From positions 1,651,501 to 1,715,500 of the forward strand of contig NZ_JPOI01000001.1 of the NCBI RefSeq assembly GCF_000733845.1: a stretch of 64,000 bases of DNA, written 5' to 3'. Made by a program: the position numbers and the translations under genes. The notes under the pieces are model-generated. The model saw nothing but the letters and a program-made list of their open reading frames with translations. It was not told the origin of the DNA and ran no database searches. Below, in pieces: positions 6,425 through 24,690 of this stretch. Position 1 is the stretch's first letter, and each line of letters begins with the position of its first letter. This stretch comes from Geobacillus vulcani PSS1. Its GTDB lineage: Bacteria; Bacillota; Bacilli; Bacillales; Anoxybacillaceae.

Positions 6425-6458
6425 GTATAATCCCTCTCTTTCTGTAATGATATTATAT

Positions 6459-6930: not shown

Positions 6931-6942
6931 GAGGGAATGGAC

Positions 6943-9612: not shown

Positions 9613-9632
9613 TGGAAAAGGAGAGGGACAAG

Positions 9633-10775
9633 GTGATTTCGTTTCAACCGACTGAAGAAGAACAGGCGTTTTTTCAAGTCGCCCGCAGTCTTGCCGTCGA
9701 GAAAATCCGCCCGGCCGCAAGAGAGTGCGAGAAACGCCGGACTGTTTCGGCTGACTTGATTGCCCGAGTGAATGAGCTTGGCCTGTCAGCGCTCGAGCTT
9801 CCAGAATTGTGGGGAGGTCTGGAACTGCCGCTTCTGTCGCAAGCGATCATTTGGCAAGGGCTCAGCTATGGCGATTTAGGCGTCATTCAAGGGCTTCCCG
9901 GGGCTGGGGAGGCGTCTTCCCTCTTTCGTCTGTCTTCCGAGCACCGTGCATGGCATCGGTACCGGGAGATCGCAAAAGGAGGACAATGGCCGACTGTTGC
10001 CTGGGTCGACGAAGCGGAACAAAAGGAACCGTTGAAGCAACCCATTCGCGTGCGCCGGCGCGGCAGCGGGTACGTGGTGGACGGAGTGTCGTCTCCAGTC
10101 CGCCTGGCGTCGAAAGCCGACTGGGTGGTCATCGCCGCGAGGGATGAAGAAGAAACGGTTTTGCTCGCTTTGGATGAGCGAGTATGGGAGATCGAAGAAG
10201 GGGATATAAGGCTGGGGCTTCTTGCTTCCGGCATCGCTCGCCTTCGATTTGCGGAAGTGTACGCCGGTCCGGAACAACTCGTTGCCCGCGGCCCGGAGGC
10301 GGACGCATGGCTCAATCGGGTGCGCGCCCGAAATCAAGTCATCGAAGCGGCGAAGGAAGTCGGCTTGATGGAGGCGGCGCTTGATTACACCATTGAATAC
10401 ACCGCGGGGAGAAAGGCGTTCGGGCAAGAAATCGCCAAGTTTCAAGGCGTGTCGTTTACGATCGCGGAGATGGCGTTTGCCTGTCGCGGGGCGAAATGTC
10501 TTGTATGGCAAGCCGCTTCTGCGGTTGACCGAGGAGATGAACAGGCGGACGGCTTTGCATGGCGTGCGCTGGCGTGCGCTCATCGTTCGCTGCGCTATGT
10601 CACCGACCAAGCGGTGCAAATGCTCGGCGGACACGGATACGTGCAAGAATATCCAGTCGAAAAATGGATGCGCGACGCCGAGGCGCAAGTGATGCTGTAT
10701 GGCCGGGAGCGAGACTGGCTCATCCGCCGCGGCGAACAGCTGCTCAGCGAACGGAAAGAGAGGGTGGCGCCATGA
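9633..10775 (+). CDS. Acyl-CoA dehydrogenase-like protein lacking the catalytic Glu
   Basis: 380 aa, with the acyl-CoA dehydrogenase (ACAD) N-terminal, middle and C-terminal domains. It keeps FAD-side features: AGRKAFGQEIAKFQG and QMLGGHGYVQEYPVEKWMRD. The catalytic position normally reading Y-E-G-T is LYGRE here (Gly357 instead of Glu), and the middle-domain TEP-GSD motif is replaced by WVDEAEQ. On its own it is unlikely to be a normal dehydrogenase. The next gene overlaps it by 4 nt and has the opposite losses, so a heteromeric enzyme is the best explanation. Start GTG 9633, 9 nt after AAGGAG; an ATG at 9612 is possible. Confidence 0.85.
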   Translation: MISFQPTEEEQAFFQVARSLAVEKIRPAARECEKRRTVSADLIARVNELGLSALELPELWGGLELPLLSQAIIWQGLSYGDLGVIQGLPGAGEASSLFRLSSEHRAWHRYREIAKGGQWPTVAWVDEAEQKEPLKQPIRVRRRGSGYVVDGVSSPVRLASKADWVVIAARDEEETVLLALDERVWEIEEGDIRLGLLASGIARLRFAEVYAGPEQLVARGPEADAWLNRVRARNQVIEAAKEVGLMEAALDYTIEYTAGRKAFGQEIAKFQGVSFTIAEMAFACRGAKCLVWQAASAVDRGDEQADGFAWRALACAHRSLRYVTDQAVQMLGGHGYVQEYPVEKWMRDAEAQVMLYGRERDWLIRRGEQLLSERKERVAP

Positions 10776-11986
10776 TTTCGTTTACCTTATCACCGCAGCA
10801 AAAACAAATGAAAGAGCTCGTCCATTGGTTCGCCAAACATGAAGTGCGTCCGATCGCACTGGAGGCGGACCGGCTGGGACGGGTGCCGGATGAGTGGCTT
10901 GAGAAAGTGAACAAAATGGGCATCCAGCTGAATGCATCCTCGTTCAGCGGGGGACGTGCACCGTCCGTCTCGGACAAGAAAAAGGAAAAAAAAGAGCGCG
11001 AAGGCAACCGCATCGCGGTGATCGCCGCCGAAGAGCTCGCGTGGGGCTGCCCAGCCGTCGCCTTGTCCCTTCCCGGACCTGGCCTTGGGGGACCGCCGGT
11101 TCAATCGAGCGGCACGCCCGAGCAAAAACAGCGGTTTTTGTCGATTTTCACGAAAGATGAACCGCGCTGGGGAGCCTATGCGTTGACCGAACCGGAAGCC
11201 GGGTCGGATGCGTCTGGCATCCGCACGACCGCGAGGAAAGTCGACGGCGGCTATGTATTAAACGGGCAAAAAATTTTCATCACGAACGGAGCCCGCGCTT
11301 CGTGGGTCGTCGTGTTCGCCACCATTGACCCGTCGCTCGGCCGCGCCGGGCACCGGGCCTTTGTCGTCGAAAAAGGAACGCCGGGATTTACGGCCACCCG
11401 CACGGTTCAGAAGATGGGCTTGCGCGCCAATGAAACGGCGGAACTCTTGTTTGAAGACTGTTTCGTCCCTGACGACAATTTGCTTGGCGGCGAAGAGCTG
11501 TACAGCGCCAACGCCAATCGTCCGTCCGGCTTTCAAGTGGCGATGAAGACGTTTGACAGCACGCGGCCGATCGTCGCCGCCATGGCGGTTGGCATCGCCC
11601 GCGCGGCGTACGAATATACGCTTGAGGTCGTCAAACGCGAATATCCAAGGCAAGGTCGTTTGTACTATGAAGCGGCTGAGCTGCTCGCCGAGGCGGAGCA
11701 AGAGATCGAGGCGGCCCGCCTGCTCACCTGGGAAGCCGCGTGGAAAGCCGACATCGGCGAACCGAACGCCATGGAAGCGGCCATCTGCAAGGCCGTGGCG
11801 GGAAAAATGGCGCTTCATGTATGCGCCATGTGCCTTGAGCTGCTTGGCCCGGCCGGTCTTGATGGGCATTTGGTCGAGAAATTGTACCGCGATGTGAAAG
11901 TGTTTGACATTTTCGAAGGCACGCAGCAAATCCAGCGCCTCGTCACCGCCCGACGGCTGTATGCGCCATACGGCGTGCACGTCTAG
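10772..11986 (+). CDS. Acyl-CoA dehydrogenase (catalytic Glu present)
   Basis: 404 aa. The ATG overlaps the previous stop (ATGA), so the two ACAD genes are translationally coupled. It has YALTEPEAGSDASGIRT and IFITNGARASWVVVF in the middle domain, and FDIFEGTQQIQRL at the C-terminus with catalytic Glu382. It lacks the usual R-x-x-F-G segment (REYPRQGRLYYEAAEL instead) and the LLGGxGY motif (LLGPAGLDG instead), both FAD contacts supplied by the partner subunit in homotetrameric ACADs. A Lys/Glu-rich insertion (about residues 60-80) follows the first helices. It introduces the alpha-beta double bond in an acyl-CoA, passing electrons to ETF. Confidence 0.9.
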   Translation: MISFTLSPQQKQMKELVHWFAKHEVRPIALEADRLGRVPDEWLEKVNKMGIQLNASSFSGGRAPSVSDKKKEKKEREGNRIAVIAAEELAWGCPAVALSLPGPGLGGPPVQSSGTPEQKQRFLSIFTKDEPRWGAYALTEPEAGSDASGIRTTARKVDGGYVLNGQKIFITNGARASWVVVFATIDPSLGRAGHRAFVVEKGTPGFTATRTVQKMGLRANETAELLFEDCFVPDDNLLGGEELYSANANRPSGFQVAMKTFDSTRPIVAAMAVGIARAAYEYTLEVVKREYPRQGRLYYEAAELLAEAEQEIEAARLLTWEAAWKADIGEPNAMEAAICKAVAGKMALHVCAMCLELLGPAGLDGHLVEKLYRDVKVFDIFEGTQQIQRLVTARRLYAPYGVHV

Positions 11987-12085
11987 AAGGGAGAGACGGC
12001 GGTCCAAGCATCTCCGCTCGCGGTGGAGAACGATGATCATTTGTGAAGTTGCCGGTTTAATCGAATGAAAAAGGGGGGAATTCCG

Positions 12086-12877
12086 ATGCCTTATGAAACG
12101 TTGCGCATCGAGCGGCGGGCGAAAGGAGTCGCGTGGATTGTCATCGACCATCCGCCGGCCAACGCCATTAGCGAAAAGTTGATGAACGAATTGGAACAAG
12201 CGGCCGATGAGCTGGAAGCCGACAGCAAGGTGCGCGTTATCGTCATCGCGTCGGCCCATCCGAAAACGTTTCTCGCCGGCGCCGACTTAAAGGACATGAT
12301 TCAGCGTGGGAGCCAGTTGGCCGGCAATGAGTCCAGCATCGCCGAACAAAGCGCCCGCATGCAGCGCTGCTTCGACCGCTTCGCCAAAATGCCGAAACCG
12401 GTGATCGCGGCCATCAACGGCTATGCGCTCGGCGGCGGCTGCGAATTGGCGCTCGCTTGCGACTTCCGCATCATGGGCGGAGGCAAAATCGGCTTAACGG
12501 AAGTCTCCCTCGGCTTGATTCCAGGAGCAGGCGGGACGCAGCGGCTGACGCGCCTTATCGGACGGGCGAAAGCGACGGAGCTTATTTTTCTCGCTCGCCG
12601 GCTCGACCCGCAAGAAGCGCTCGAATTCGGCCTCGTTCATCGCGTCGCGCTCCCAGAGCGGCTCGAAGAAGAAGCGGCGGCGTTTGCCGAGCAATTGTCA
12701 GAAGGCGCGGTGCGGGCGATGGGGCTGGCCAAGCGGGCCATCTATGTGGCCGAGGGGCTTCCAGAAGACGGATTTGGCATCGAAGCGTCGTCATTTGCGG
12801 CCACGTTTAAGACGGGAGAGCCGGCGATCGGGCTGGCCGCGTTTTTCCAAAAGAAACAACCGCAATTTTTGCGATAA
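12086..12877 (+). CDS. Enoyl-CoA hydratase (crotonase family)
   Basis: 263 aa. It hydrates trans-2-enoyl-CoA to 3-hydroxyacyl-CoA. The oxyanion-hole sequence KTFLAGADLKDM and YALGGGCELALACD are present, with both catalytic acids: Glu120 in GGGCEL and Glu139 in LTEVSLGLIPGAGGTQRL. ATG 12086 follows AAGGGGGGAA by about 6 nt. It sits 99 bp after the ACAD pair and 15 bp before the SDR, matching the biochemical order of beta-oxidation. Confidence 0.93.
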   Translation: MPYETLRIERRAKGVAWIVIDHPPANAISEKLMNELEQAADELEADSKVRVIVIASAHPKTFLAGADLKDMIQRGSQLAGNESSIAEQSARMQRCFDRFAKMPKPVIAAINGYALGGGCELALACDFRIMGGGKIGLTEVSLGLIPGAGGTQRLTRLIGRAKATELIFLARRLDPQEALEFGLVHRVALPERLEEEAAAFAEQLSEGAVRAMGLAKRAIYVAEGLPEDGFGIEASSFAATFKTGEPAIGLAAFFQKKQPQFLR

Positions 12878-12892
12878 ATGGGGGGAATCTTG

Positions 12893-13735
12893 ATGTCATC
12901 ATGGGCGGAACTGCTGAAAGGAAAAGTAGCGGTCGTCACCGGCGCCTCACGCGGCCTCGGGCGGGCGGACGCCTTGGCGCTTGCCGAGGCGGGAGCGGAT
13001 GTCGTCATCACCGATATTTTGCTTGAATCGGATGAAGAAAGCAAACAAACGGCGCAAAAATATGGGCCGCTCTCCCAAGTGATGCAAAGCACGAACGTCG
13101 TATATGCCGAAAAAACGGCTGAGGAAATCCGCGCCATGGGGCGGCGGGCAATGGCGATCAAAATGGACGTCACCGACCGCGAGCAAGTGAAGGACGTGTT
13201 TGCCCGCGTCAAAGAGGAGTTCGGATCGATCGACATTTTGGTCAACAACGCGGGGACGCTCGATCATGTTTCGCAGATTGAAAAGCAAAATGATGAGTTG
13301 TGGGAGCGCGATTTGCGAGTGAACTTGACCGGCACGTACAATTGCACGAAAGCCGTGTGGCCGTACATGAAGGAGCAAGGATGGGGACGGATCATCAACA
13401 TGTCGTCCGTCGCCGGCACGCTCGGCGGCTTCGGGCAGGCGAGCTACTCGGCGACGAAAGGAGCGGTGTTGAGCTTTACGAAAAGCATGGCGCTGGAAGG
13501 AGCGCGCTACGGCATTACGGTGAACGCCATCGTGCCGGGCATTATCAATACGGAAGCGTTCCGCATGGGCAACCCGAAAATGAACGAACGGATGATCCAG
13601 CGCACGGCGTTCCGCCGCCCGGGTGAACCGGAAGACGTCGCCAACGCCATCGTGTTCCTTTGTTCCGATAAAGCGAAATACATTACGGGGATTGGATTGA
13701 ATGTTTCCGGCGGCATCGAACTGTTTACGTTCTAG
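12893..13735 (+). CDS. SDR-family dehydrogenase, probable 3-hydroxyacyl-CoA dehydrogenase
   Basis: 280 aa, classical SDR: cofactor motif TGASRGLGR (near residue 18), NNAG, and the catalytic Ser-Tyr-Lys in MSSVAGTLGGFGQASYSATK. An acidic residue after strand 2 (TDILLESDEES) favours NAD. There is an insertion of roughly 25 residues between strand 2 and helix C compared with ordinary FabG-like SDRs. Position between hydratase and thiolase implies oxidation of the 3-hydroxyacyl-CoA intermediate. ATG 12893 has only a G-rich upstream site (GGGGGGAA). A FabG-type reductase in the reverse direction cannot be excluded. Confidence 0.85.
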   Translation: MSSWAELLKGKVAVVTGASRGLGRADALALAEAGADVVITDILLESDEESKQTAQKYGPLSQVMQSTNVVYAEKTAEEIRAMGRRAMAIKMDVTDREQVKDVFARVKEEFGSIDILVNNAGTLDHVSQIEKQNDELWERDLRVNLTGTYNCTKAVWPYMKEQGWGRIINMSSVAGTLGGFGQASYSATKGAVLSFTKSMALEGARYGITVNAIVPGIINTEAFRMGNPKMNERMIQRTAFRRPGEPEDVANAIVFLCSDKAKYITGIGLNVSGGIELFTF

Positions 13736-13846
13736 ATGAATCAGCGCCCGATTTGGATAGCGATTGGGACAAGAAGGAGAGGCCTGCAGCGGCTCTGGCC
13801 GCGCAGGGAAAAGGGTTTGATTTTGATACGGAACAGGAGGAGCGGC

Positions 13847-14989
13847 ATGAGGGAAGTCGTCATTGTTGACGCCGTGCGCACGGCGATCGGCAAGAAAAAA
13901 GGAGCGCTTGCCAACGTCCATCCGGTTGACATGCTTGTTCCGGTGCTGCGGGCGCTTGTCGACCGGAATGGGCTGGATGCCGGCCTGGTGGAAGACGTCA
14001 TCGTCGGCTGCGTGACGATGACCGGGGAGCAAGGGGGCAACATCGCCCGCCAAGCGGTGCTCGCCGCCGGATTTCCGGTCGAAGTACCGGCGTTTTCCTT
14101 AAACCGGATGTGTGGTTCGAGCCAACAGGCGATTCACAGCGCGGCGCAGGCGATTTTGGCCGGCGACATCGACATCGCCATCGCCGCTGGGGTCGAAAGC
14201 ATGACGCGCGTGCCGATGGGAAGCGACATGGGACGGTTCAGCCGCCAGCTGACAAGTCGGTACAACATCGTGCCGCAAGGGATTTCCGCCGAGATGATCG
14301 CGAAAAAATGGGGGTTGTCGCGGGAAGAGTTGGATGCGTTTTCACTCGAAAGCCACCAAAAAGCGGCCGCGGCGGCCGACGGCGGGATGTTTGCGCGGGA
14401 AATCATCCCGCTTGAAGTGCGAGGCGAAAACGGAACGATGACATTTGCCCGTGATGAAGGGATTCGGCGCGACACCTCGCTCGAAAAGTTAGCGGCGTTA
14501 ACACCGTCATTCCAGCCGAAAGGCGGCGTCATTACGGCGGGTAACTCAAGCCAAGTGAGCGACGGAGCGGCCGGCGTGCTGCTCATGTCGTCGGATAAAG
14601 CCCGGCAGCTTGGCTTGCGGCCTAGGGCGCGCATCGTCGCCCGCACGGTCATCGGCGAAGATCCGATTCTGATGCTTACGGGCGTCATCCCAGCCACGCG
14701 CCGCGTGCTCGAAAAAGCGGGGCTGCGCCTTGACCAAATCGATGTCATCGAAATCAATGAAGCGTTCGCTTCGGTCGTCAAAGCGTGGGAGCGGGAGCTT
14801 GAGCCGGATATGGCGAAAGTCAATCCGCGCGGCGGGGCGATCGCCCTCGGCCACCCGCTCGGCGCGAGCGGCGCCCGGCTGATGACGACGCTGCTTCATG
14901 AACTCGAGGACATGGACGGGACATACGGACTACAGGTGATGTGCATCGGCTTTGGCATGGCGACCGCCACGATCATCGAGCGGCTGTAA
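13847..14989 (+). CDS. Acetyl-CoA acyltransferase (thiolase)
   Basis: 380 aa. It cleaves 3-ketoacyl-CoA with CoA to acetyl-CoA and a shortened acyl-CoA. Nucleophile Cys89 is in LNRMCGSSQQAIHSAAQAI; the second His336 is in GHPLGASGAR, and the acid/base Cys366 is in CIGFGMATA. NEAFASV is also canonical. ATG 13847 is 6 nt after AGGAGG. It completes the beta-oxidation set. A biosynthetic thiolase (acetoacetyl-CoA formation) has the same motifs; the gene context argues for degradation. Confidence 0.94.
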   Translation: MREVVIVDAVRTAIGKKKGALANVHPVDMLVPVLRALVDRNGLDAGLVEDVIVGCVTMTGEQGGNIARQAVLAAGFPVEVPAFSLNRMCGSSQQAIHSAAQAILAGDIDIAIAAGVESMTRVPMGSDMGRFSRQLTSRYNIVPQGISAEMIAKKWGLSREELDAFSLESHQKAAAAADGGMFAREIIPLEVRGENGTMTFARDEGIRRDTSLEKLAALTPSFQPKGGVITAGNSSQVSDGAAGVLLMSSDKARQLGLRPRARIVARTVIGEDPILMLTGVIPATRRVLEKAGLRLDQIDVIEINEAFASVVKAWERELEPDMAKVNPRGGAIALGHPLGASGARLMTTLLHELEDMDGTYGLQVMCIGFGMATATIIERL

Positions 14990-15008
14990 GCAGAAAGGGG
15001 GGAGCGGG

Positions 15009-16754
15009 TTGCACGCATCACTTGAAACGGCCAAAACAACACCGACGCCCGACTTGGCGGCTATCGGCGCCGCCATTGAAGAGGAACTGGCCGCCATCAC
15101 CATCGGAAGGCGGAGGAGAAAGATTATTGCGACGATCGCCAAAAACGGGCTCGGCATGGTGCTGGGCGATGTCATCGCCCGCAAGCTGCGAGGGAACGAG
15201 GGAGACAAACCATATTTGCACCATATCGGCCGGAGGCTGCGCCTGGCGTTTGAGGAGCTCGGCCCAACGTTCATCAAGCTCGGGCAGGTGCTCGTCACAA
15301 GACAGGACATCTTGCCGGAGCCGATCACGATCGAGCTGGAGAAATTGCTCGACCGGGTGCCGCCGATCGAGTTCGCCAAAATTCAATACATTCTCGAACG
15401 TGAGCTGCCCGACGGTCTCGAGACGTTTGAATGGATCGAAGAAACGCCGCTCGGTTCGGCGTCGCTTGCCCAAGTATACAAAGCCAAGCTGAAAGAAGGG
15501 CCGGTCGTCGCCGTGAAAGTGGTGCGCCCGACGGTCGAAAAGCTGTTTCAAACCGACATCTCCATCATCAAAAAAATGGCCGCCCGCCTGCAAAAGCGAC
15601 TGCCGCCCGAATTGCAGGCCGCCCTTGACCTCGGGGGGCTCGTGCAAGATTACTACAGCAGCGCCATGGATGAGCTGGATATGACGGAAGAAGCGCGAAA
15701 AATGCAAGAGATGAAGCAAAAATACGAAAGGAGGGCCGAACATGTCACGGTTCCGCACGTGTACGAAGCGACGAAAAGCGTCTTAATTATGGAATACATT
15801 GACGGCTGGCTCATTAAAGATTTCCCCGTTGATTTTCTCACCTTTGAAGAGCGGGTCAACATCATGATCGACCTCGTTCACCATTATGTACAGACGATGC
15901 TCGATGGCCATTACCATGCCGATGCTCACGGTTCCAACATCATGATCGACAAGCGAACGAAAAAGGCGGTCATCATCGACTGGGGAATGACCGGGCGGAT
16001 GGACAGCGTGATGGCGCAAATTTTAATGCGCGTCATTTTGCACATCCAGCTCAACCAAGCGGAAGACGCCGCCGAAGTGTTTATGGAGCTCATGTCGCCG
16101 ACCATCTACACCGATGTCGTCAAATTGAAAGATGAACTGCGGACGCTGACGCTGAACTACGTCAACGCCCACCAGGGAAGCAGCCGCTACAATTACGGTC
16201 GCCTCGTCCTTGAAGCGACGGTGATCGGGCTCCGCAACTACTGCAAAGTCCCGAACGGCCTGGCGCTTTGGGCGAAAGGATTTTCCGCCACCGAAGGAAC
16301 GGCGCGCTGGATTTGTCCGGAAATTTCGTACGGCGAAGTCGTCGAGGCGTATGAAATCCCGATTTTAAAAAGCATTCTTGGAAAGCGCTTTAATTTCCGC
16401 GCCAACGCCAGCCTTGTCGCCGAAACGGCGGAAATGATCGCCACCTTCCCGCGCCGGTTCAACAAAGTGCTCGAGACGATGGCCGAAAACAAATGGCGCA
16501 TGACCGTGCAAGTCCAAACCGACCCAGTGACGCGCAACACACTCAACCAAATCGCCAATCGTTTGGCGCTTTCCCTCATCGCGTTTGCCATCATTATGGC
16601 CACCGGGTTCATCATCGCCAGCATCCCGGGCGGAACGTTTCTCGGCATGGAGAAAATGACGATCGCCAACATCGGGTTGGCCGCTTCTGCCATCTTGGTC
16701 GTTTTTCTTGGCTGGCGGCTGTTCCGCACCCGCAAGCAGCGGCCATGGTTTTAA
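15009..16754 (+). CDS. ABC1/UbiB-family kinase-like membrane protein
   Basis: 581 aa. Family signatures are clear: the KxGQ motif in TFIKLGQVLVTRQDILP, the modified glycine-rich loop LGSASLAQVYKAKL, the lysine in VAVKVVRP, YHADAHGSNIMID and the metal-binding IIDWGMTGRM. Two hydrophobic segments at the C-terminus (about residues 515-570) anchor it in the membrane. UbiB/Coq8 proteins are ATPases that assist quinone or lipid metabolism rather than protein kinases. A UbiB member between thiolase and alcohol dehydrogenase genes is unusual. The start is TTG 15009 behind AAAGGGGGGAG; no ATG has a ribosome-binding site. Confidence 0.9.
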   Translation: MHASLETAKTTPTPDLAAIGAAIEEELAAITIGRRRRKIIATIAKNGLGMVLGDVIARKLRGNEGDKPYLHHIGRRLRLAFEELGPTFIKLGQVLVTRQDILPEPITIELEKLLDRVPPIEFAKIQYILERELPDGLETFEWIEETPLGSASLAQVYKAKLKEGPVVAVKVVRPTVEKLFQTDISIIKKMAARLQKRLPPELQAALDLGGLVQDYYSSAMDELDMTEEARKMQEMKQKYERRAEHVTVPHVYEATKSVLIMEYIDGWLIKDFPVDFLTFEERVNIMIDLVHHYVQTMLDGHYHADAHGSNIMIDKRTKKAVIIDWGMTGRMDSVMAQILMRVILHIQLNQAEDAAEVFMELMSPTIYTDVVKLKDELRTLTLNYVNAHQGSSRYNYGRLVLEATVIGLRNYCKVPNGLALWAKGFSATEGTARWICPEISYGEVVEAYEIPILKSILGKRFNFRANASLVAETAEMIATFPRRFNKVLETMAENKWRMTVQVQTDPVTRNTLNQIANRLALSLIAFAIIMATGFIIASIPGGTFLGMEKMTIANIGLAASAILVVFLGWRLFRTRKQRPWF

Positions 16755-16835
16755 CGAGAGCGTCGAAAATGGGAGGGACACTCCACACGAGATCCGATAG
16801 GGAATGAGGAGACGATCAGAGCGGGATTCGCCCTC

Positions 16836-16849
16836 GGCGAACGTTCGCC
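16836..16849. repeat. 14-bp perfect palindrome in the oxidation cluster
   Basis: GGCGAACGTTCGCC lies between the UbiB-like gene and the next small gene. TTCGCC-CTC-GGCGAA directly before it can form an overlapping hairpin. Operator or mRNA-processing hairpin are both possible. Confidence 0.45.
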
Positions 16850-16911
16850 AAAGGGAAAAAGCGCGTCAAGGACGACGGGGACAAACGAGAAGCGGGGAGG
16901 GGGGAGAAAGC

Positions 16912-17244
16912 ATGCGTGACGACGAACAAGAACAACTGACGATGTCCAAACGAATCGAAGCGTTTTACCGGCAAAGCGGCGGACCGGGAAACCCGACGAT
17001 CCGGCGGCTGCTCGATAGACATTTGCTGTATGGGAAAGACCACGGGCTGCCGGGGAAAAAGGAAGAGTTTGAGGATGTCATCCGCGATGTGTTTTTGCAA
17101 GACCATTCGACCCGACCGCTCGTCATCGGCCTTTTCAAGCTGAAAGCAACGCTCAAGCAGGAATGGGACGCCTATTTGGATGCAGTGCGAGGCCGCGGCG
17201 CCGTCCGTGAAGAGGAAGCGGATATGGCCAGCAAGCGGGCGTAA
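16912..17244 (+). CDS. Conserved hypothetical protein
   Basis: 110 aa, soluble, highly charged, without signal peptide or membrane segment. I do not recognise the family. A short motif-like stretch NPTIRRLLDRHLLYGKD is followed by predicted helices. The ribosome-binding site GGGGAGGGGGGAG precedes ATG 16912. It ends 27 bp before the alcohol dehydrogenase gene, so it is probably part of the same transcript. Confidence 0.6.
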   Translation: MRDDEQEQLTMSKRIEAFYRQSGGPGNPTIRRLLDRHLLYGKDHGLPGKKEEFEDVIRDVFLQDHSTRPLVIGLFKLKATLKQEWDAYLDAVRGRGAVREEEADMASKRA

Positions 17245-17271: not shown

Positions 17272-18378
17272 ATGGCGAAAGCCGCGGTATTGCAACGCTA
17301 TGGGGAGCCGCTGACAATCGAAGAAGTGGAGGTGGCGGGCCCCAAGCGCGGGGAAGTCAAGGTGAAACTGAAAGCGGCCGGCCTTTGCCATAGCGATTGG
17401 CACGTCGTCGAAGGCAAGCTCCCTCTGCCGCTGCCGATCGTGCTTGGCCACGAAGGAGCGGGCGTTGTCGAGGAAGTCGGAGAAGGCGTGACAAATGTCA
17501 AGCAAGGCGACCATGTGGTGCTCAATTGGGTGCCGTCATGCGGCCGCTGCCGCGACTGCCGCACCGGGCGGCCCGATCTATGCGAGGAGGCGGCGCGGCT
17601 GACGGCGACCGGCACGCTGCCGGATGGGACGACGCGTTTTTCGTGGCAAGGGAAGCCCGTGTATCAGTTTTTAACCGCTGGTGCGTTCAGCGAATACACC
17701 ATCGTGCCGGAGCAGGCGGTCATCCCGATCCGCCGGGATGTGCCGTTTGAGCTGGCGGCCTTGATCGGCTGCAGCGTCATGACCGGGGTGGGGGCGGTCA
17801 TTCATACGGCCCGCGTTCGCCCGGGCAGCACAGTTGCGGTCCTTGGCGCCGGCGGCGTCGGATTCAATATCATTCAAGGAGCCGCGTTAGCGGGGGCGAA
17901 ACAAATTATTGCCATTGATGTCGTCGAGGAAAAATTGGCGATGACGAAAACGTTCGGGGCGACGCACACCGTAAACGCCCGCGAGGAAGATGCCGTCAGC
18001 GCCGTGCTCGACTTGACTGACGGCCTTGGCGTCGACTATGCCTTTGAAGCGATCGGCCGTCCAGAGACGATGGCCGACGCATACAACATGACGCGAAAAG
18101 CGGGAACGACGGTCATCGTCGGCATCGCCGCGCCGCATGAAACGGTGGAGATCAACGCCTTTTCGCTGCCGTCCCAATCGAAAACGTTGACCGGTTCTTG
18201 GCTTGGCCAAGGCAATCCGCCGGTTGACTACCCGAAGCTGCTTGATTTGTACGCGGCGGGCAAGTTGAAGCTCGAACCACTCATTAGCGCCGTCTATTCG
18301 CTCGAGCAAATCAACGACGGATTCGCTGCCTTAAAGAGCGGGCAAAACATTCGCGGCCTTATTCGCTTTGAAGAATGA
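17272..18378 (+). CDS. Zinc-dependent alcohol dehydrogenase (class I/III-like MDR)
   Basis: 368 aa. It oxidises an alcohol to an aldehyde with NAD(P) or a related acceptor. Catalytic zinc ligands are visible: Cys39 (GLCHSDW), His60-Glu61 (GHEGAG) and Cys167 (IGCSVMTG). A structural zinc site has four Cys (90, 93, 96, 104). The Rossmann motif is VLGAGGVGFN. The 21-residue stretch between the structural zinc and the mid-domain resembles class III and NDMA-dependent alcohol dehydrogenases rather than the short bacterial ADHs. It is followed by an SCP2 gene and an aldehyde dehydrogenase gene, its likely metabolic partner. Confidence 0.9.
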   Translation: MAKAAVLQRYGEPLTIEEVEVAGPKRGEVKVKLKAAGLCHSDWHVVEGKLPLPLPIVLGHEGAGVVEEVGEGVTNVKQGDHVVLNWVPSCGRCRDCRTGRPDLCEEAARLTATGTLPDGTTRFSWQGKPVYQFLTAGAFSEYTIVPEQAVIPIRRDVPFELAALIGCSVMTGVGAVIHTARVRPGSTVAVLGAGGVGFNIIQGAALAGAKQIIAIDVVEEKLAMTKTFGATHTVNAREEDAVSAVLDLTDGLGVDYAFEAIGRPETMADAYNMTRKAGTTVIVGIAAPHETVEINAFSLPSQSKTLTGSWLGQGNPPVDYPKLLDLYAAGKLKLEPLISAVYSLEQINDGFAALKSGQNIRGLIRFEE

Positions 18379-18531
18379 GACGACAATCCGCCCCCGCGTG
18401 CGTTGGGGTGAACAAACAAGAGAAGCCGTTCGGCGGTCGGAAAGAGAGCGTTTTCTCTGTCCTTGGATGAAAAGTGGGCAAACAAAGGGATCGAAAAAAC
18501 GTAGAACGATCGAGACGAGAGGGGGATTGAT

Positions 18532-18960
18532 ATGCCGGTGTTTCAAAGCGAGCAAGAGTTGTATGATGTGCTCGGCCGCTTTTTTGAAAAGGTGGCGGAG
18601 ACGGACGAGTCGAAGGAATTGATCGCCTCGACAGAGCTAAGCCCCGGCTATGACGCGTATGTCCAATATATTTTTCATAAGCCGGAAGCGAAAATTACGT
18701 GGACACACGAAAACGGGAGGCTGAAAATCGTCTGCGGCGAGACAGACTTGCGGCCGGAGCTCATTTTTGAGCAGACGGCGGATGTCGGGCATAAGTTTTG
18801 GCTTGGGAAGCTCGACTTGCAGCAGGCGCTCGCCCGCCAGCAAATCAAAGTGCAAGGGCCGCTTGTGAACGCCTTGAAAGTATTGCCGTAGCTTGACGCC
18901 ATTTACCCGGCGTACCACGACTATTTGCAGGAAATCGGACGGAGCGACTTGCTGCCATAG
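18532..18960 (+). pseudogene. SCP2-domain protein interrupted by an in-frame amber codon
   Basis: The open frame runs 119 codons from ATG 18532 to TAG 18889-18891. It then continues in the same frame for 22 more sense codons (LDAIYPAYHDYLQEIGRSDL, then LP) to TAG 18958-18960. The tail resembles the C-terminus of the SCP2 protein encoded at 6943 (VPAFPLYRRYLELIDERALL), so the first TAG looks like a nonsense mutation, possibly C to T in a CAG codon. The SCP2 core (RLKIVCGETDLRPELIFEQT, then HKFWLGKLDL) is intact, and the shortened protein might still fold. Three SCP2-type genes occur in this cluster. Confidence 0.75.
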
Positions 18961-19075
18961 CGGCGATCTTGGGAATGCCGGGCGGGATGTCGCCAGGGGC
19001 GCTGTAAGCACTTGGAAACGCGCTGTCTCCATCGGCTTTGCGCCCGATATAGCGGTTGGGAAAGGAGAAACGACA

Positions 19076-20566
19076 ATGATTTCTGTGAAAACAACAGAAG
19101 CAGGTTTATGGATTGGAGGAGAATGGCGGCCGGCGGCGGATGGCGCGCTGTTTGACGTCGTCGACCCGGCGACAGGCCAAGTGACGGCCCGTGTGGCCAA
19201 CGCCGGGGAAAAAGATGTCGACGCGGCGGTCGCCATCGCCGAAGAGGCGTTTTCGGACCGGCGTTGGCTGTCGATTCCGCCGCTCGAGCGCGGGCGCATC
19301 TTGCGCCGAATCGCCGAACTGATCCGCCAGCATCATTACGAGCTCGCGCAGCTCATGACACGGGAAAACGGCATGCCGATCAATCTCGCGTTGTTTATTG
19401 AAATTCCGCTTGCCGCCGACTGCTTCGACTTTTTCGCTTCGCTCGTCGTCAAGCCGCAAGGGGAGGTGCTGCCGTTTTCCGTTGCCGGCTCGGCGCCGGA
19501 TTATATGGCGTGGACGATGAAAGAGCCGATCGGGGTGGCTGGGCTCATCACCCCATGGAATTTTCCGCTGCTCATGCCGACGTGGAAAATCGCCCCGGCG
19601 CTGGCGGCGGGCTGTACGATGGTGGTAAAACCGGCGCCGGAAACGCCACTGACGGCGTTGAAGCTTGCTGAGATTTGCCATGAGGCCGGCGTGCCGGAGG
19701 GCGTCATCAACGTCCTGCCTGGACTCGATGAGGCCGGAAAAGCGCTCGTCAGCCACCCTGGCGTGCCGAAAATCGCGTTTACCGGCGAAACGGAAACCGG
19801 GCGCCGCATCTTGCAAGCGGCCGCTCCCCACATTAAGCGGGTGACGCTCGAGCTTGGTGGGAAGTCGCCGAATATCATCTTTGCGGACGCGGATCTTGAA
19901 CAGGCGGCGAAAAGCGCGCTGTTTGGCGTGTTCTACAATTCAGGGCAAGTCTGCCAAGCGGGAAGCCGCATTTTAGTGGAACGGCCGGTTTACGAAACGT
20001 TTGTCGAGCTGTTGGCCCGCAAAGCGAAAAAGCTGAAAGTCGGGCCCGGCACGGATGCGCGCAACGACCTTGGCCCCGTCATCAGCCGGGAGCAATACGA
20101 GAAAGTATTGCACTACATTGACATCGGCAAGCAGGAAGGGGCGAAGCTCGTTGCGGGAGGGAGCGCTTTAGACGGACTTGGCGGCGGCTATTTTATCGAG
20201 CCGACGGTCTTTGCCGATGTCAAGCCGTCGATGCGCATCGCCCGTGAAGAAATTTTCGGTCCAGTGGCGGCGGTTATTCCGTTCGAGGATGAAGAAGAAG
20301 CCGCTTCCATTGCCAATGATACGATGTATGGCTTGGCGGCCGCGGTGTGGACGAACGACATCAAACGGGCGCTCCGCCTCGCTCGGCGGGTGAAAAGCGG
20401 AACCGTCTGGATCAACACGTACCAAGTGCTGTCGCCGACCGCACCGTTTGGCGGCTACAAGCAAAGCGGCCTCGGCCGCGAGCTCGGGGGGCAGGCGCTT
20501 GAGCCGTATTGGGAGACGAAAACGATCATTTGCGATCTCAACGAACGGCCGATGACCTTGTTTTAA
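19076..20566 (+). CDS. Aldehyde dehydrogenase (NAD(P)-dependent)
   Basis: 496 aa, the usual length. It oxidises an aldehyde to the acid. Motifs: ITPWNFPLLMPTWKIAPAL, MVVKPAPETPL, FTGETETGRRI (cofactor loop), catalytic Glu259 in LELGGKSPN and nucleophile Cys293 in SGQVCQAGSR; EEIFGPV and PFGGYKQSGLGRE near the C-terminus. ATG 19076 has AAAGGAG 8 nt upstream. Placed after the alcohol dehydrogenase, it would feed acids to the ligase encoded at the start of the cluster. Confidence 0.94.
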   Translation: MISVKTTEAGLWIGGEWRPAADGALFDVVDPATGQVTARVANAGEKDVDAAVAIAEEAFSDRRWLSIPPLERGRILRRIAELIRQHHYELAQLMTRENGMPINLALFIEIPLAADCFDFFASLVVKPQGEVLPFSVAGSAPDYMAWTMKEPIGVAGLITPWNFPLLMPTWKIAPALAAGCTMVVKPAPETPLTALKLAEICHEAGVPEGVINVLPGLDEAGKALVSHPGVPKIAFTGETETGRRILQAAAPHIKRVTLELGGKSPNIIFADADLEQAAKSALFGVFYNSGQVCQAGSRILVERPVYETFVELLARKAKKLKVGPGTDARNDLGPVISREQYEKVLHYIDIGKQEGAKLVAGGSALDGLGGGYFIEPTVFADVKPSMRIAREEIFGPVAAVIPFEDEEEAASIANDTMYGLAAAVWTNDIKRALRLARRVKSGTVWINTYQVLSPTAPFGGYKQSGLGRELGGQALEPYWETKTIICDLNERPMTLF

Positions 20567-20617
20567 GGCGGAAACACGACGGCTCACCCATGACGCATTT
20601 CAAGGAGGGAGAACGCG

Positions 20618-21532
20618 ATGGTCCATCATGACGGATTTCAAACGGTGAAAGGAACGATCGATTGGGAGCATCCGATGTACAAATTGTATGAAAAAGCGAA
20701 GCGGAATGGGAAATGGAATCCGGCCGACATCGATTTCAGCCAAGACAAAGAAGATTTCGCCCGTTTGACAAGCGAAGAAAAGATCGCGGCGCTGCCGCTC
20801 GTCGCCGGTTTTTCCGCCGGAGAAGAGGCGGTGACGCTCGATATTTTGCCGATGGCCAACGCCCTCGCGCGCCAAGGGCGGCTTGAGGATGTCCTGTTTT
20901 TAACGACGTTTATGCACGATGAAGCGAAACATGTCGAGATGTTTTCCCGCTGGCAGCAAGCCGTCGGCATTGGACAAATGGACTTGTCCGTCTTCCATAA
21001 CGACCATTACAAACGCATCTTTTACGAAGCGCTGCCGGAAGCGATGAACCGGCTGTATACCGACGATTCGCCGGAAGCGGTCATCCGCGCCGCCACTGTC
21101 TACAACATGATTGTCGAAGGGACGCTCGCCGAATCGGGGTATTATACGTTCCGGCAAATTTACAAAAAAGCCGGGCTGTTCCCAGGGCTGCTCCAAGGCA
21201 TCGACTATTTGAACATGGACGAGGGCCGCCATATTCAGTTCGGCCTGTACACGATCCAGCGGCTCGTCAACGAAGACGAGCGGTATTACGATTTGTTCAT
21301 CCAATATATGGACGAATTATGGCCTCATGTTGTCGGCTATGTCGCTTATTTGACCGAGCTCGGACAGCGCCAGCAGCAGCTCGCCCGCACATATGCGTTG
21401 GAAATCGACTATGAGATGCTGAACAACTATGTCATCAAGCAGTTCAACATTCGCAAAAAACAAATCAGCCGAGCGAAGCGGTATGACAGCGTCGAGGAGC
21501 TGGAAAAAACGTTGAGCGAGGCGGAACGTTGA
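20618..21532 (+). CDS. R2-like ligand-binding oxidase (R2lox)
   Basis: 304 aa. This is the ferritin-like oxidase group related to ribonucleotide reductase R2, not a ribonucleotide reductase subunit. All metal ligands are at the numbering I recall for the G. kaustophilus enzyme: Glu69, Glu102, His105, Glu167, Glu202 and His205. Val72 and Tyr162, which form the Tyr-Val ether cross-link in the crystallised protein, are both present. Such proteins assemble a Mn/Fe cofactor and hold a long-chain fatty acid in the active site; their cellular substrate is unknown. GGAGGG precedes ATG 20618. It lies 51 bp after the aldehyde dehydrogenase, within the oxidation cluster. Confidence 0.95.
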   Translation: MVHHDGFQTVKGTIDWEHPMYKLYEKAKRNGKWNPADIDFSQDKEDFARLTSEEKIAALPLVAGFSAGEEAVTLDILPMANALARQGRLEDVLFLTTFMHDEAKHVEMFSRWQQAVGIGQMDLSVFHNDHYKRIFYEALPEAMNRLYTDDSPEAVIRAATVYNMIVEGTLAESGYYTFRQIYKKAGLFPGLLQGIDYLNMDEGRHIQFGLYTIQRLVNEDERYYDLFIQYMDELWPHVVGYVAYLTELGQRQQQLARTYALEIDYEMLNNYVIKQFNIRKKQISRAKRYDSVEELEKTLSEAER

Positions 21533-21566
21533 AAACCGGAGCAAGGCTGCCGACAGGGGGATGAAG

Positions 21567-22805
21567 ATGGCGGAACGCTTGAGAAAACTTGTTGCCCTTT
21601 CCGTTGTGACCGTTTTGGCTGCCGTTGCCGGCTGGCTGTTGGGCGGCGCCGGCCGGGCGGCAGCGGAAGGACAGGAACCAGAAGGATTTGTCATTCATGC
21701 CGATAAAGTGGTAGGGACGATTGATTTGGGTGGAATCATTCTTAAGGTCCCGGTCATTTTCAAGGGAGATATGCCGATCGCCTTTATGCAAGCGAAAATA
21801 TATGGGATGACATTGACGAAACAACAAACGATGGCCGGGCGCACCGTGTCGTTTACGTTCCACACCGATCAAGTTGCGCGGACGAAATGGATGAAAGTGA
21901 GAGTGAAAAAAATGGAGATCGGTGGGCTGTGCACAGACGGCATGCCGCTTGTTGAGCAATGTTTGAAAGATGTAACGGTCGTGGCGACGGAACTGACAGC
22001 GGATGAGCTTGCCATTCCGCAGCTATCGGCGCAGGCATCGTTTGGAACGGCTTCCGTGGATGGTGGCAGTTCGATGGAATCGGATGGGGGTCAACTGCCA
22101 GAGACGTCAACGAAAACCGATCAGCCGACTGGGCCGTCATCAGAACAAAAGCCAACCGCGCCATCGGAACCGAGCGCGTCACCGAACGAACCGGCTTCTA
22201 CAACGCCGAGCAGGAAACCGGCGGACAGAAGCAGCAACGGATCAGGGGATGGAAGCGATCCATCATCCGCTCCACCGACGCCTGGAAACGAAGAAGCGCC
22301 CCCAAGCCCGACTGCTCCTGCCGCGCCGCCGTCAACCATCCCTCCTCCAGCGCCTGACTCGGTGGGCGGGTTGATCGAGGAAGTGAAAGACGAACAGAAA
22401 AAAACGAGCGAGCTGATCGATCAAATCAGCGACGCGGTGAAATCCTCGGCAAGCGAGAAGACGCTCGATGGCATCGAGCAGCTGATCCGCAGCCAGACGG
22501 ATCGGCTGACTGAACAGCTGGAACAAATCGATGCTATCTGGCAACAGACAAATGAACAGTGGAAGAACATGCAGCAGGAGTTAAGAGAGCATAAGCCGCC
22601 GGATGAGGCAGGGAGCGGACAACAGCCGCCGACGCAGGAATTGCCTGCGCCGCTTTCCGATGCGGGAGAAGGAAAGGGGATGATCGAACAGGTGTCGGAA
22701 CGCATTCAACAGTATGAAGCGCAGCTTGAACAGCTTGAGAAAGTGAAACAACAGCTCGAACAACAGAAGAATGAGCTGAAACGCTGGATGCGGGTGCTGC
22801 CCTAA
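21567..22805 (+). CDS. Secreted protein with Pro/Ser-rich linker and coiled-coil C-terminus
   Basis: 412 aa, function not recognised. The N-terminus has a signal peptide (basic start, hydrophobic core ALSVVTVLAAVAGWLLGG, then AAAEG as likely cleavage site). Residues about 35-150 form a compact domain with CTDGMPLVEQC, which could make a disulfide. A Pro/Ser/Thr-rich linker (about 170-270) leads to long amphipathic helices (IEEVKDEQKKTSELIDQISD and the QLEQLEKVKQQLEQQ region) likely to coil. ATG 21567 is 6 nt from AGGGGG; ATG 21561 is too close. It begins 34 bp after R2lox and is co-directional. It may act at the cell surface with the cluster. Confidence 0.75.
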   Translation: MAERLRKLVALSVVTVLAAVAGWLLGGAGRAAAEGQEPEGFVIHADKVVGTIDLGGIILKVPVIFKGDMPIAFMQAKIYGMTLTKQQTMAGRTVSFTFHTDQVARTKWMKVRVKKMEIGGLCTDGMPLVEQCLKDVTVVATELTADELAIPQLSAQASFGTASVDGGSSMESDGGQLPETSTKTDQPTGPSSEQKPTAPSEPSASPNEPASTTPSRKPADRSSNGSGDGSDPSSAPPTPGNEEAPPSPTAPAAPPSTIPPPAPDSVGGLIEEVKDEQKKTSELIDQISDAVKSSASEKTLDGIEQLIRSQTDRLTEQLEQIDAIWQQTNEQWKNMQQELREHKPPDEAGSGQQPPTQELPAPLSDAGEGKGMIEQVSERIQQYEAQLEQLEKVKQQLEQQKNELKRWMRVLP

Positions 22806-23178: not shown

Positions 23179-24690
23179 TCAAATAATGCCGTCGCGGATC
23201 GCTTTCACAATGGCTTCCGTCCGGTTTTTGGCGTTCATTTTTTGCAAAATGGCCGACACATAGTCGCGCACCGTATACTCGCTCAAATGGAGCCGTTTCG
23301 CGGCCTCATAGGTCGACGCCCCTTCGGCGACGAGCTTCAGCACCTCGATTTCCCGCGGCGACAGGTGAGGCGTCGATGGAACGAGCTCCGGACGGCCGCC
23401 GCTGAATTTCGCCAGCACTTCGCCGGCGCTTTGGCCGAATTTCATGACCGCGGTGAAAATGTCGCTCGATAACGTGAACGGGCGTCCGGGGCCTTGATCC
23501 AAAATGGCCGCACCGATGAGCCGGTTTTCTGACGGGGCGTAAATCGGGGCGATGACGATCGATTCGAGCTGGAACTGCTCGATGTATTTGGTGGGCAGCC
23601 CTTCCGACGCATCGGGCAAGTAGATGGGCGGCACATTCGCCATATGATTGCCGAGCAGCTGCAGCTGCTGCACGTACTGTTTAATAAGCGGCAAAGCGTT
23701 GATGTTCTCGCGAATGTTTTTGATTTGTTTGTTATCAAGCTTGTATCCGTAAAGACCGAATCCGCTTTCATTCTCACTCGAGTAGGCGAACAGCGCGCAG
23801 CGTTCAAACGGCAAATAGGCGACAAAACCGGACGAAATGTATTCCACCGCCTGCTGCAATGATTTCGCGCGCATGATCCATCGATCGAATAAAATGACGG
23901 CATCTTTCCAAAGTTGGTCTTGTTTCGTTTGCTCAAGCGCCATTCCCCCGGCGTGAAACAGTTCGAACGAATGAAGGAGAAACGGAAGGACTTGATGATC
24001 CGTTTCATCTGTGCAAAACAAGAAAACGCTTTCTTCCCATGGAAGCGGAATGACGCGTTTCTTTCCTCTCGCCTTTGGCATATAGGCAAGCAACTGTTCA
24101 CCTAAGGAAAAAATGGTGTCAGCTTCCAATACGTGAATAGCTGTCGGCAGCCACTCTGTTTCTCCGTATAGTTTTTTAACGTAAAAGCGGCCGTCCATCT
24201 TGTCCAGTTCGGCGATCCAATGGATGGGCATTTGTCTTGAGGCGGCAAGCTGTTCCAAAAACCGCCCGATGTCCGGCTGGTTGTCGACCGTTGGGGAAAA
24301 AACGGCCTCATACAGTTTGGAAAACAAATATTGAACGGCTTGATGATCATGAAATGTGCTGCCGGGGATGGCTTGAACGACTTCATGAACCGCATTTTCG
24401 AGCATCGTAAAGACAAACGTCATTTTGTTAGACGGCGAAAAACATGAATGGCTGCGCCATGCTTCACCGACGGTTTTCAGCCATTCGCGCGCCTCGCCAT
24501 TCGCTTCCGCTGTGTGTTCGCAAAGCAGTTCAATGGCCGCTTCAAGCGAAGGGGCCGCGATATGCTGCTTTTTCCTTAGTTCGCATAATTTTGCATTCCA
24601 ACGGGAAACGATCGATTCGCGGTGCCGTCCGATGATCGCCATCCCATCTTGCAAAATGGCCTGCAGCTTTTCACTTAGCGTACGATGCAC
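23179..24690 (-). CDS. LuxR-type transcriptional regulator with large sensory N-terminus
   Basis: 503 aa. The C-terminal 65 residues form a LuxR/FixJ helix-turn-helix: LSPREIEVLKLVAEGASTYE, then LHLSEYTVRDYVSAILQKM. Residues about 290-425 look GAF-like (FERCALFAYSSENESGFGLY; SIVIAPIYAPSENRLIGAAI). The N-terminal 250 residues are not assigned. There is no receiver domain, so it is probably ligand-controlled. The start is GTG 24690 with GGAGGG 7 nt upstream. It is divergent from moaB and convergent with the oxidation cluster, and is the best candidate regulator for that cluster. Confidence 0.88.
   Translation of the reverse strand: MHRTLSEKLQAILQDGMAIIGRHRESIVSRWNAKLCELRKKQHIAAPSLEAAIELLCEHTAEANGEAREWLKTVGEAWRSHSCFSPSNKMTFVFTMLENAVHEVVQAIPGSTFHDHQAVQYLFSKLYEAVFSPTVDNQPDIGRFLEQLAASRQMPIHWIAELDKMDGRFYVKKLYGETEWLPTAIHVLEADTIFSLGEQLLAYMPKARGKKRVIPLPWEESVFLFCTDETDHQVLPFLLHSFELFHAGGMALEQTKQDQLWKDAVILFDRWIMRAKSLQQAVEYISSGFVAYLPFERCALFAYSSENESGFGLYGYKLDNKQIKNIRENINALPLIKQYVQQLQLLGNHMANVPPIYLPDASEGLPTKYIEQFQLESIVIAPIYAPSENRLIGAAILDQGPGRPFTLSSDIFTAVMKFGQSAGEVLAKFSGGRPELVPSTPHLSPREIEVLKLVAEGASTYEAAKRLHLSEYTVRDYVSAILQKMNAKNRTEAIVKAIRDGII

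Follow-up and report, generated by a model that had tools for sequence, protein, structure and literature searches.

The R2-like ligand-binding oxidase (R2lox) has served as a model for Mn/Fe cofactors in structural and spectroscopic work, with no agreed function. Which reaction might it carry out in the cell, and in which pathway? We consider this question for an R2lox gene in a 64,000-nucleotide stretch of the Geobacillus vulcani PSS1 chromosome (hereafter, the window), which corresponds to positions 1651501 to 1715500 of the 3.39-Mb single-contig genome. The gene follows those for a zinc alcohol dehydrogenase (ADH) and an aldehyde dehydrogenase (ALDH). An original prediction, made from the window's letters, proposed that R2lox hydroxylates or desaturates a lipid or hydrocarbon whose product passes through ADH, ALDH, acyl-CoA ligase, and beta-oxidation enzymes. 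We find that R2lox is linked to ADH and ALDH genes in Bacillota and that, on actinobacterial plasmids, it changes places with the cytochrome P450 CYP153. Together, these observations point to R2lox as a probable C-H hydroxylase.

R2lox of the window

20618–21532, + strand: R2lox (GkR2loxI orthologue), Mn/Fe oxidase, 304 amino acids, identified by family profile, PDB match, and alignment

The protein scores 509 bits against the NCBIfam family NF006200 "R2-like ligand-binding oxidase" (cut-off, 194 bits); its match to GkR2loxI (PDB 4hr0) spans residues 1 to 301 (633 bits), and it is 91% identical to the G. kaustophilus HTA426 protein. The six metal ligands listed in the original prediction (E69, E102, H105, E167, E202, and H205) and the V72/Y162 pair are all present and are invariant in a 16-row alignment, as is A171. 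Val72/Tyr162 and Ala171 are described as features of R2lox proteins in the accessible text of PMC6399176. Class I ribonucleotide reductase R2 (NrdB/NrdF) shares the fold family PF00268 and the metal ligand pattern with R2lox; however, R2lox scores far under the ribonucleotide reductase family cut-offs, and a separate, better R2 match lies at 124526 in the genome. A ribonucleotide reductase role is ruled out by these family scores and the separate R2 gene.

The same genome contains a second, divergent R2lox, 39% identical to the first in the alignment, which is located 37 base pairs (bp) from another ALDH gene, followed by an iron-type ADH gene. Both R2lox genes of the genome therefore have an ALDH gene no more than 55 bp away, while there are 17 ALDH genes in 3.39 Mb (18 matched stretches, two of them in one frame). 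Of 73 R2lox loci across the order of the window, 70 keep every metal ligand; the other three are two fragments and one variant, L127, in which Gln takes the place of E102. Separately, four R2lox matches have one internal stop (TGA in G395, G715, and G784; TAA in G459). These and L127 are probably decaying or variant copies.

Exchange of R2lox with CYP153 on actinobacterial plasmids

Actinobacteria were covered through their plasmids, eight of which carry R2lox; six were opened. All four Rhodococcus stretches opened contain an NDMA-dependent ADH (NDMA-ADH), R2lox, an FAD reductase, and a ferredoxin, and three of the four also hold ALDH, SCP2, ligase, and MlaE-type permease genes. Two nearly identical mycobacterial plasmids carry R2lox together with an SCP2-like protein, a ligase, and NDMA-ADH. 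The ADH, ALDH, and SCP2-like carrier (SCP2x) of the window are, respectively, 44%, 47%, and 28 to 30% identical to their homologues on the actinobacterial R2lox plasmids.

A search of plasmids with the Rhodococcus SCP2x returned 34 records; 8 are the R2lox plasmids, and 8 of the 26 others were opened. Seven of these eight R2lox-free plasmids have a P450 in the stretch, and one does not. Three of the seven P450s are of the CYP153 type: their top PDB matches include chains named CYP153A7, CYP153D17, and "P450 alkane hydroxylase." They accompany the cassette on pREL1 of R. erythropolis and on plasmids of M. aubagnense and M. intracellulare subsp. chimaera. The typed P450s number six; the other three, those of L248, L251, and L252, are not of the CYP153 type and were excluded from the exchange count, and L254 holds the seventh P450. 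As described in the accessible texts of the respective papers, CYP153 is an alkane-oxidizing P450 that works with a ferredoxin and a ferredoxin reductase (PMC8918992, PMC5607502) and has also been used for fatty-acid omega-hydroxylation (PMC3815936).

Two pairs of plasmids were compared directly. Between a mycobacterial R2lox plasmid (L089) and the CYP153 plasmid pREL1 (L249), SCP2x, ligase, and ADH are 84, 78, and 87% identical, and the DNA aligns in a single collinear 3.3-kb match at 76%. In the second pair, R. opacus B4 (L088) and the plasmid of M. intracellulare subsp. chimaera (L250), the alignment covers ADH at 81% and the ALDH-SCP2x-ligase part at 78%; where L088 has R2lox, the FAD reductase, and the ferredoxin (7873–10533), L250 instead has ~275 bp, and its CYP153 gene is located past the two regulator genes. 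The same carrier-ligase-ADH cassette on actinobacterial plasmids thus holds either R2lox or CYP153. The exchange is apparently new: no prior report of it, or of the pairing of R2lox with a ferredoxin, was found among the matches listed in openly licensed PMC papers.

Linkage of R2lox to ALDH and ADH genes in Bacillota

Two samples of neighborhoods were analyzed. The first set consisted of 79 R2lox loci, among the best 80 of at least 566 confirmed matches; by record title, 58 are from Bacillota and 21 from Chloroflexota, with one locus titled Chryseobacterium (L032) placed in Bacillota on account of its neighbor genes. In the 58 Bacillota loci, ALDH was found within 300 bp of R2lox in 32 and within 3 kb in 37; within 3 kb, any ADH was found in 40 and ADH together with ALDH in 35. 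In 50 full loci, a within-locus null averaged 6.3, and reached at most 15, for ALDH at 300 bp, compared to 29 observed; for ligase, it averaged 6.2 and reached at most 14, compared to 19 observed. At 300 bp, ADH was not above this null (8 observed versus 5.9), since it is usually located one gene further out.

For an even sample, 397 genomes of the window's order were searched, and R2lox was found in 71 of them, in 86 matched places. We used 73 of these places, leaving out 11 of the window's genus (the window's two included) and 2 fetched earlier, and compared them with 55 control places, which a fixed rule picked from these contigs; one control, L222, sits ~10 kb from an R2lox. The neighbor family models were built from first-set loci, with which 11 of the 73 cases share their R2lox, and the LuxR-type and metallo-hydrolase families were chosen after inspection of first-set neighborhoods. 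Because the sample contains related species, the loci are dependent, and the Fisher P values ignore relatedness. Both ALDH and ADH were found within 3 kb in 45 of 73 R2lox loci and in none of the 55 controls. For the single families at this distance, the corresponding counts were 46 and 2 for ALDH, 54 and 1 for ADH, 24 and 1 for ligase, and 34 and 0 for a LuxR-type regulator. At least one locus with both ALDH and ADH occurs in 14 of 25 genera. Overall, R2lox is linked to ALDH and ADH beyond chance. In the Bacillota part of the survey that had been suggested along with the original prediction, R2lox is therefore not found mostly apart from ADH, ALDH, and acyl-CoA genes.

The neighboring ADH is of three kinds. 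An NDMA-like Zn-ADH is found in the window clade, in L010, L012, and L013, and, at 44% identity, in Rhodococcus and Mycobacterium; another Zn-ADH (~31% identity) occurs in L056, L073, L082, L084, L109, and L110; the third kind is an iron ADH. Gene order varies as well: ADH-SCP2x-ALDH-R2lox in the window, ligase-R2lox-ALDH-FeADH in many Bacillaceae, and ALDH-FeADH-R2lox in divergent copies such as L183 to L188. The cluster of L039 shares with the window the pair of ABC1 and c19 genes (listed below) and beta-oxidation genes, but its ADH is of the iron kind. Judged from these arrangements, the partner of R2lox is a function rather than one particular gene. On the R2lox tree, ALDH presence requires a minimum of 18 changes.

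Two further families recur. The LuxR-type regulator, which has short and long forms, is encoded no more than 300 bp from R2lox in 30 of 73 loci, compared to none of the 55 controls, and is possibly a dedicated R2lox regulator. A metallo-beta-lactamase-fold hydrolase is encoded within 3 kb in 11 of 73 loci compared to 0 of 55 controls, upstream of the ligase-R2lox-ALDH-FeADH genes in L128, L135 to L138, and others.

The window cluster is gained and lost as a unit

R2lox, SCP2x, and the ADH orthologue co-occur in an identical set of 13 among 41 genomes of the window's family. In the 11 fetched relatives of the window type with both sides present (L092 to L102), one gene order is kept from enoyl-CoA hydratase to the LuxR-type gene, with the exception of a DUF6230/DUF6114 pair (see below). 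Four R2lox-free genomes from the same two genera were compared at the empty site. In G422, with intact flanks, window position 4078 is joined to 24990, i.e., 4079–24989 is missing; in G425, 4078 is joined to 24888, again with intact flanks. G419 (L114) retains scraps matching 12763–12975 and 18167–18268, so the block was deleted there, and G435 has ~8.7 kb of other DNA at the site. The 20.8-kb block, with the TetR gene (4210) at one end and the LuxR-type gene (24690) at the other, is thus gained or lost as a unit, in few events. Apart from R2lox, its genes are:

4210–4818, − strand: TetR-family regulator (Pfam PF17754 C-terminal domain), the first gene of the block missing from the empty site
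4913–6463, − strand: MFS transporter (Pfam)
6742–7455, + strand, start uncertain: SCP2-like protein, paralogue of the one before ALDH (SCP2x alignment; no Pfam family)
7585–7941, + strand: SCP2 lipid carrier (PF02036, 80 bits)
8029–9612, + strand: acyl-CoA ligase (PF00501; NF004837, 498 bits, cut-off 476)
9576–10775, + strand, start uncertain: acyl-CoA dehydrogenase 1 (Pfam)
10559–11986, + strand, start uncertain: acyl-CoA dehydrogenase 2 (Pfam)
12065–12877, + strand: enoyl-CoA hydratase (PF00378)
12878–13735, + strand: short-chain dehydrogenase/reductase (SDR), possibly for the 3-hydroxyacyl-CoA dehydrogenase step (PF13561/PF00106; under the TIGR03971 cut-off)
13736–14989, + strand: thiolase (PF00108/PF02803)
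14952–16754, + strand, start uncertain: UbiB/ABC1-type atypical kinase (PF03109)
16804–17244, + strand: small conserved protein "c19" (no Pfam family), behind ABC1 in most relatives that have the cluster
17272–18378, + strand: Zn alcohol dehydrogenase (Pfam), closest to the NDMA-dependent type
18532–18891, + strand: SCP2-like carrier SCP2x, shortened by an in-frame TAG (family alignment; no Pfam family)
19076–20566, + strand: aldehyde dehydrogenase (PF00171, 608 bits; open reading frame from 18893)
21561–22805, + strand: coiled-coil protein "c46", starting 28 bp after R2lox
23179–24690, − strand: LuxR-type regulator (PF00196), recurring beside R2lox

The open reading frame coordinates confirm that R2lox is co-directional with ALDH and begins 51 bp after it. 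The likely start of ALDH is the ATG at 19076, which stands behind a ribosome-binding site. A consensus scan of the 51 bp before R2lox, which is weak evidence, revealed no terminator- or promoter-like site. Pfam matches likewise bear out the Zn-ADH, ligase, acyl-CoA dehydrogenases, hydratase, SDR, and thiolase upstream of R2lox. Of the SCP2 carriers predicted there, the 7585–7941 product is a Pfam SCP2 protein, while those of 18532–18891 and 6742–7455 form one SCP2-like family; the 6742–7455 type is the second SCP2x-alignment match in all 13 cluster-bearing family genomes. The description of the oxidation cluster as complete held in part. The other enzymes were found, but no canonical 3-hydroxyacyl-CoA dehydrogenase is present among the cluster proteins scanned with Pfam, and completeness therefore rests on the SDR serving this step.

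Neither the window form of SCP2x nor the form of L007 matches a Pfam family. A structural model of the full-length L007 relative (pLDDT, 89) has SCP2 proteins as its best PDB matches (E ~1e-5), which predicts an SCP2 fold for the SCP2x family. The TAG at 18889–18891 is not found in the 12 other family genomes bearing the gene; the relatives' SCP2x continues for ~22 residues past this point, and the window tail is still in frame downstream.

The Zn-ADH scores 421 bits against the NDMA-dependent ADH family TIGR03989, under its cut-off of 440, and is 44% identical to the Rhodococcus NDMA-ADH. ADH and SDR resemble families that depend on mycofactocin in Actinobacteria, and the TetR regulator has an MftR-type C terminus. 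A mycofactocin link was nevertheless dropped: ADH and SDR are under the cut-offs, and the sole match to the radical SAM protein MftC in the genome (45 bits) is under its cut-off of 265.

Other features vary among clusters of this type. The ABC1-c19 pair is present in most of them; L084 and L109 are without c19. A pair of DUF6230 (P21-like) and DUF6114 genes separates R2lox from c46 in 7 of the 11 relatives (L092, L093, L097 to L100, and L102) and also in L111; the pair is absent from the window, L094, L095, L096, and L101. The c46 protein is probably secreted, as judged by eye from its N terminus.

Published work on the orthologous locus

The original prediction held that the natural substrate of R2lox is unknown. 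This overlooks a claim printed in 2024 (PMC10867098), the accessible text of which is summarized here. The G. kaustophilus HTA426 cluster GK2769-GK2782 is described, and GK2771, its R2lox, is proposed to be an alkane monooxygenase; the prediction is therefore not new, as the paper already proposes it for the orthologous cluster. The strain degrades C10-C24 alkanes, and Escherichia coli lysate with GK2771 decreases alkane amounts, with substrate loss measured and no product reported. The E202A/H205A mutant differs by 11 to 21 percentage points. The gene behind GK2771 is an orthologue of the alkane-inducible protein P21, and R2loxII, on plasmid pHTA426, has nearby ADH and ALDH genes. R2lox co-purifies with C16 or C18 hydroxy fatty acids, and the bound hydroxy fatty acid is argued not to be a substrate. 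Resting on crude lysates and thin biochemistry, the alkane claim is weakly supported. Elsewhere, partly accessible papers report that a two-electron oxidation in the R2lox cofactor joins a tyrosine to a valine side chain (PMC6399176), that a long-chain fatty acid sits on the metals in structures, and that a desaturase role has been proposed (PMC6399176, PMC4118035).

Proposed function of R2lox and its alternatives

We consider it probable that R2lox is the oxygen-using first enzyme of the cluster, a Mn/Fe C-H hydroxylase that does the job of CYP153. From the contexts described above, we infer its reaction, substrate, and electron path as follows. The substrate would be hydrophobic and aliphatic, with n-alkanes or other long alkyl chains the most likely candidates; delivered by the SCP2-type carriers, it would bind in the R2lox tunnel above the metals. 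With O2 and two electrons supplied via a ferredoxin and its reductase, a hydroxyl group would be inserted; the electron donors are encoded beside R2lox in Rhodococcus and presumably elsewhere in the Geobacillus genome. ADH and ALDH would convert the alcohol to an acid, which the ligase and the beta-oxidation enzymes would then break down. A catalytic hydroxylase is the best reading since the cofactor of R2lox performs two-electron oxidation, hydroxy fatty acids co-purify with it according to the accessible literature, and it occupies the place of CYP153. The original prediction is supported, and of its two reactions, the exchange with CYP153 points to hydroxylation. A broader proposition, that R2lox is generally a small single-protein, ferredoxin-driven Mn/Fe aliphatic hydroxylase without partners of the multicomponent methane monooxygenase type, exchanged with CYP153 within one alkane-oxidation cassette, with the Rhodococcus reductase-ferredoxin and the Bacillota LuxR-type protein dedicated to it, seems to us only slightly favored.

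A number of observations weigh against the proposed hydroxylase function. Neither ALDH nor ADH lies within 3 kb of R2lox in 18 of the 73 order loci, 7 of the 25 genera have neither at this distance, and 13 of the 58 first-set Bacillota loci have neither enzyme within 6 kb (4 of them on short contigs). The eight nearest R2lox proteins outside the window's family (61 to 71% identical; L120 to L124, L126, L127, and L181) have within 3 kb a thiolase gene in 8 of 8 and a ligase gene in 5 of 8 cases, but ALDH or ADH in 0 of 8; such neighborhoods would be as compatible with an acid substrate as with an alkane. An ALDH or ADH gene is found within 6 kb in 0 of 21 Chloroflexota loci, and an ADH/ALDH pair in 0 of 4 haloarchaeal records opened (of 18 found). 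No credible ferredoxin-like gene was revealed within 6 kb of Bacillota R2lox by a motif scan of 88 loci, judged by eye. On the two mycobacterial R2lox plasmids (L089 among them), ALDH, reductase, and ferredoxin are all absent from the stretch, and a non-CYP153 P450 is encoded ~4 kb upstream. The ALDH of pREL1 is of another type, only 31% identical to those of R2lox plasmids. In the window genome, two genes exceed the cut-off of the flavin monooxygenase family TIGR03860, which includes LadA, and there is one FA_desaturase-family gene; therefore, another alkane hydroxylase is possible in the genome. Last, in the accessible text of PMC10867098, the E202A/H205A mutant retained much activity, and no product was identified.

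The context of ADH and ALDH thus holds in many Bacillota loci but not in the eight loci, in the Chloroflexota loci surveyed, or in the four haloarchaeal records opened, which have other neighbors. The presence of thiolase in all eight loci, with neither ALDH nor ADH in any, makes beta-oxidation genes the steadier partner of the window type of R2lox. ADH and ALDH accompany this type in Geobacillus, its relatives, and L125, L129, and L130 (51 to 53% identical); the R2lox of L121, one of the eight, is identical to that of L008 (Tuberibacillus calidus), a member of the window's clade on the R2lox tree that likewise has no ADH/ALDH neighbors. In Chloroflexota, where a Zn-ADH gene is found within 10 kb in 2 of 21 loci, R2lox likely has a different role. 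Recurrent glycosyltransferase-, methyltransferase-, CorA-type transporter-, and SMP30-like genes occur in L043, L046, L053, and L079, and NUDIX genes lie near other R2lox loci of this phylum (all named by eye). The haloarchaeal R2lox residues are conserved in those checked. On a Natronorubrum bangense plasmid (L119), R2lox is flanked by genes for a 2Fe-2S ferredoxin and for a quinone oxidoreductase, with acyl carrier protein (ACP), ketosynthase, holo-ACP synthase, malonyltransferase, and FabG genes nearby, a context that hints at action on acyl chains during their synthesis.

In the strongest alternative, R2lox may oxidize a long-chain acid, alcohol, or lipid, by omega- or in-chain hydroxylation or by desaturation, rather than an alkane, with ADH and ALDH then making a dicarboxylic or oxo acid or serving other alcohols. 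We regard this as a serious but less likely reading. It accords with the fatty acid on the metals and the desaturase proposal in the accessible parts of PMC6399176 and PMC4118035, with the thiolase and ligase genes of the eight loci, with the haloarchaeal R2lox amid ferredoxin, ACP, and fatty-acid synthesis genes, and with the service of CYP153 in fatty-acid omega-hydroxylation (PMC3815936). However, CYP153, with which R2lox is exchanged, is known above all as an alkane oxidizer (PMC8918992, PMC5607502), and PMC10867098 argues against the bound hydroxy fatty acid as substrate. The substrate is less sure than the hydroxylase role because the eight nearest extra-family loci keep beta-oxidation genes without ADH and ALDH.

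It is unlikely that R2lox is a passenger or accessory protein (a lipid sensor, an oxygen or metal buffer, or a single-turnover self-modifying protein) while the true oxygenase is encoded elsewhere. The literature covered, as far as accessible, contains no multi-turnover activity with an identified product, and the lack of an electron donor gene near Bacillota R2lox in the scan of 88 loci and the different Chloroflexota context also agree with such a role; yet the replacement by CYP153 and the private reductase and ferredoxin of Rhodococcus are hard to explain in this way, and the metal ligands are kept in nearly all order loci. We consider it very unlikely that the linkage reflects shared ancestry and hitch-hiking neighbors in a few lineages rather than function. 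Loci of one genus are not independent, although the P values treat them so, ADH at 300 bp does not exceed the within-locus null, and the gain and loss of the unit in the family are few events. Nevertheless, the linkage is found repeatedly, in several R2lox clades and in two phyla, and with more than one kind of ADH and more than one gene order, and the 18 or more changes of ALDH presence on the tree also speak for function.

The exchange with CYP153 is evidence for a hydroxylase role of R2lox that is independent of the 2024 claim, and it names a substrate class. Plasmid pROB01 of R. opacus B4 supplies a specific reductase and ferredoxin, which are missing from earlier work as far as its text is accessible. 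If the proposed function is true, a non-heme Mn/Fe enzyme of ~300 residues would join the few that activate unactivated C-H bonds.

Comparison with known systems

The closest known system is the G. kaustophilus GK2769-GK2782 locus, where, according to the accessible text of PMC10867098, the orthologous R2lox stands amid ADH, ALDH, ligase, acyl-CoA dehydrogenases, hydratase, reductase, and thiolase. The window differs in having no DUF6230/DUF6114 genes behind R2lox and in the TAG of its SCP2x. That text holds no controlled neighborhood survey, CYP153 exchange, or ferredoxin partner gene. GkR2loxII (GKP26, plasmid pHTA426) keeps the R2lox residues and has ALDH and iron ADH on the same stretch but is only ~31% identical to the window R2lox over the matched part. 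On this plasmid (L085), R2loxII adjoins a UbiD decarboxylase, an MFS transporter, a ligase, and a xanthine dehydrogenase-type set.

The CYP153 cassette (pREL1 of R. erythropolis PR4, M. aubagnense) is similar to that of the R2lox plasmids in its SCP2-like carrier, CoA ligase, NDMA-dependent ADH, ferredoxin, and FAD reductase. It differs in the oxygenase and the ferredoxin, a heme P450 with a 2Fe-2S ferredoxin as compared to the Mn/Fe R2lox with a 4Fe-4S-type ferredoxin, and the reductases compared between the two cassettes have no BLAST match. The window holds the carrier, ligase, NDMA-type ADH, and ALDH together, at 24 to 32% (SCP2-like), 31 to 33% (ligase), 44 to 46% (ADH), and 47 to 48% (ALDH; pREL1, 30%) identity to the plasmid homologues, and no P450 was found in the window genome. 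By analogy, the window cluster would work like a CYP153-type cassette without being one, with R2lox in the place of the P450.

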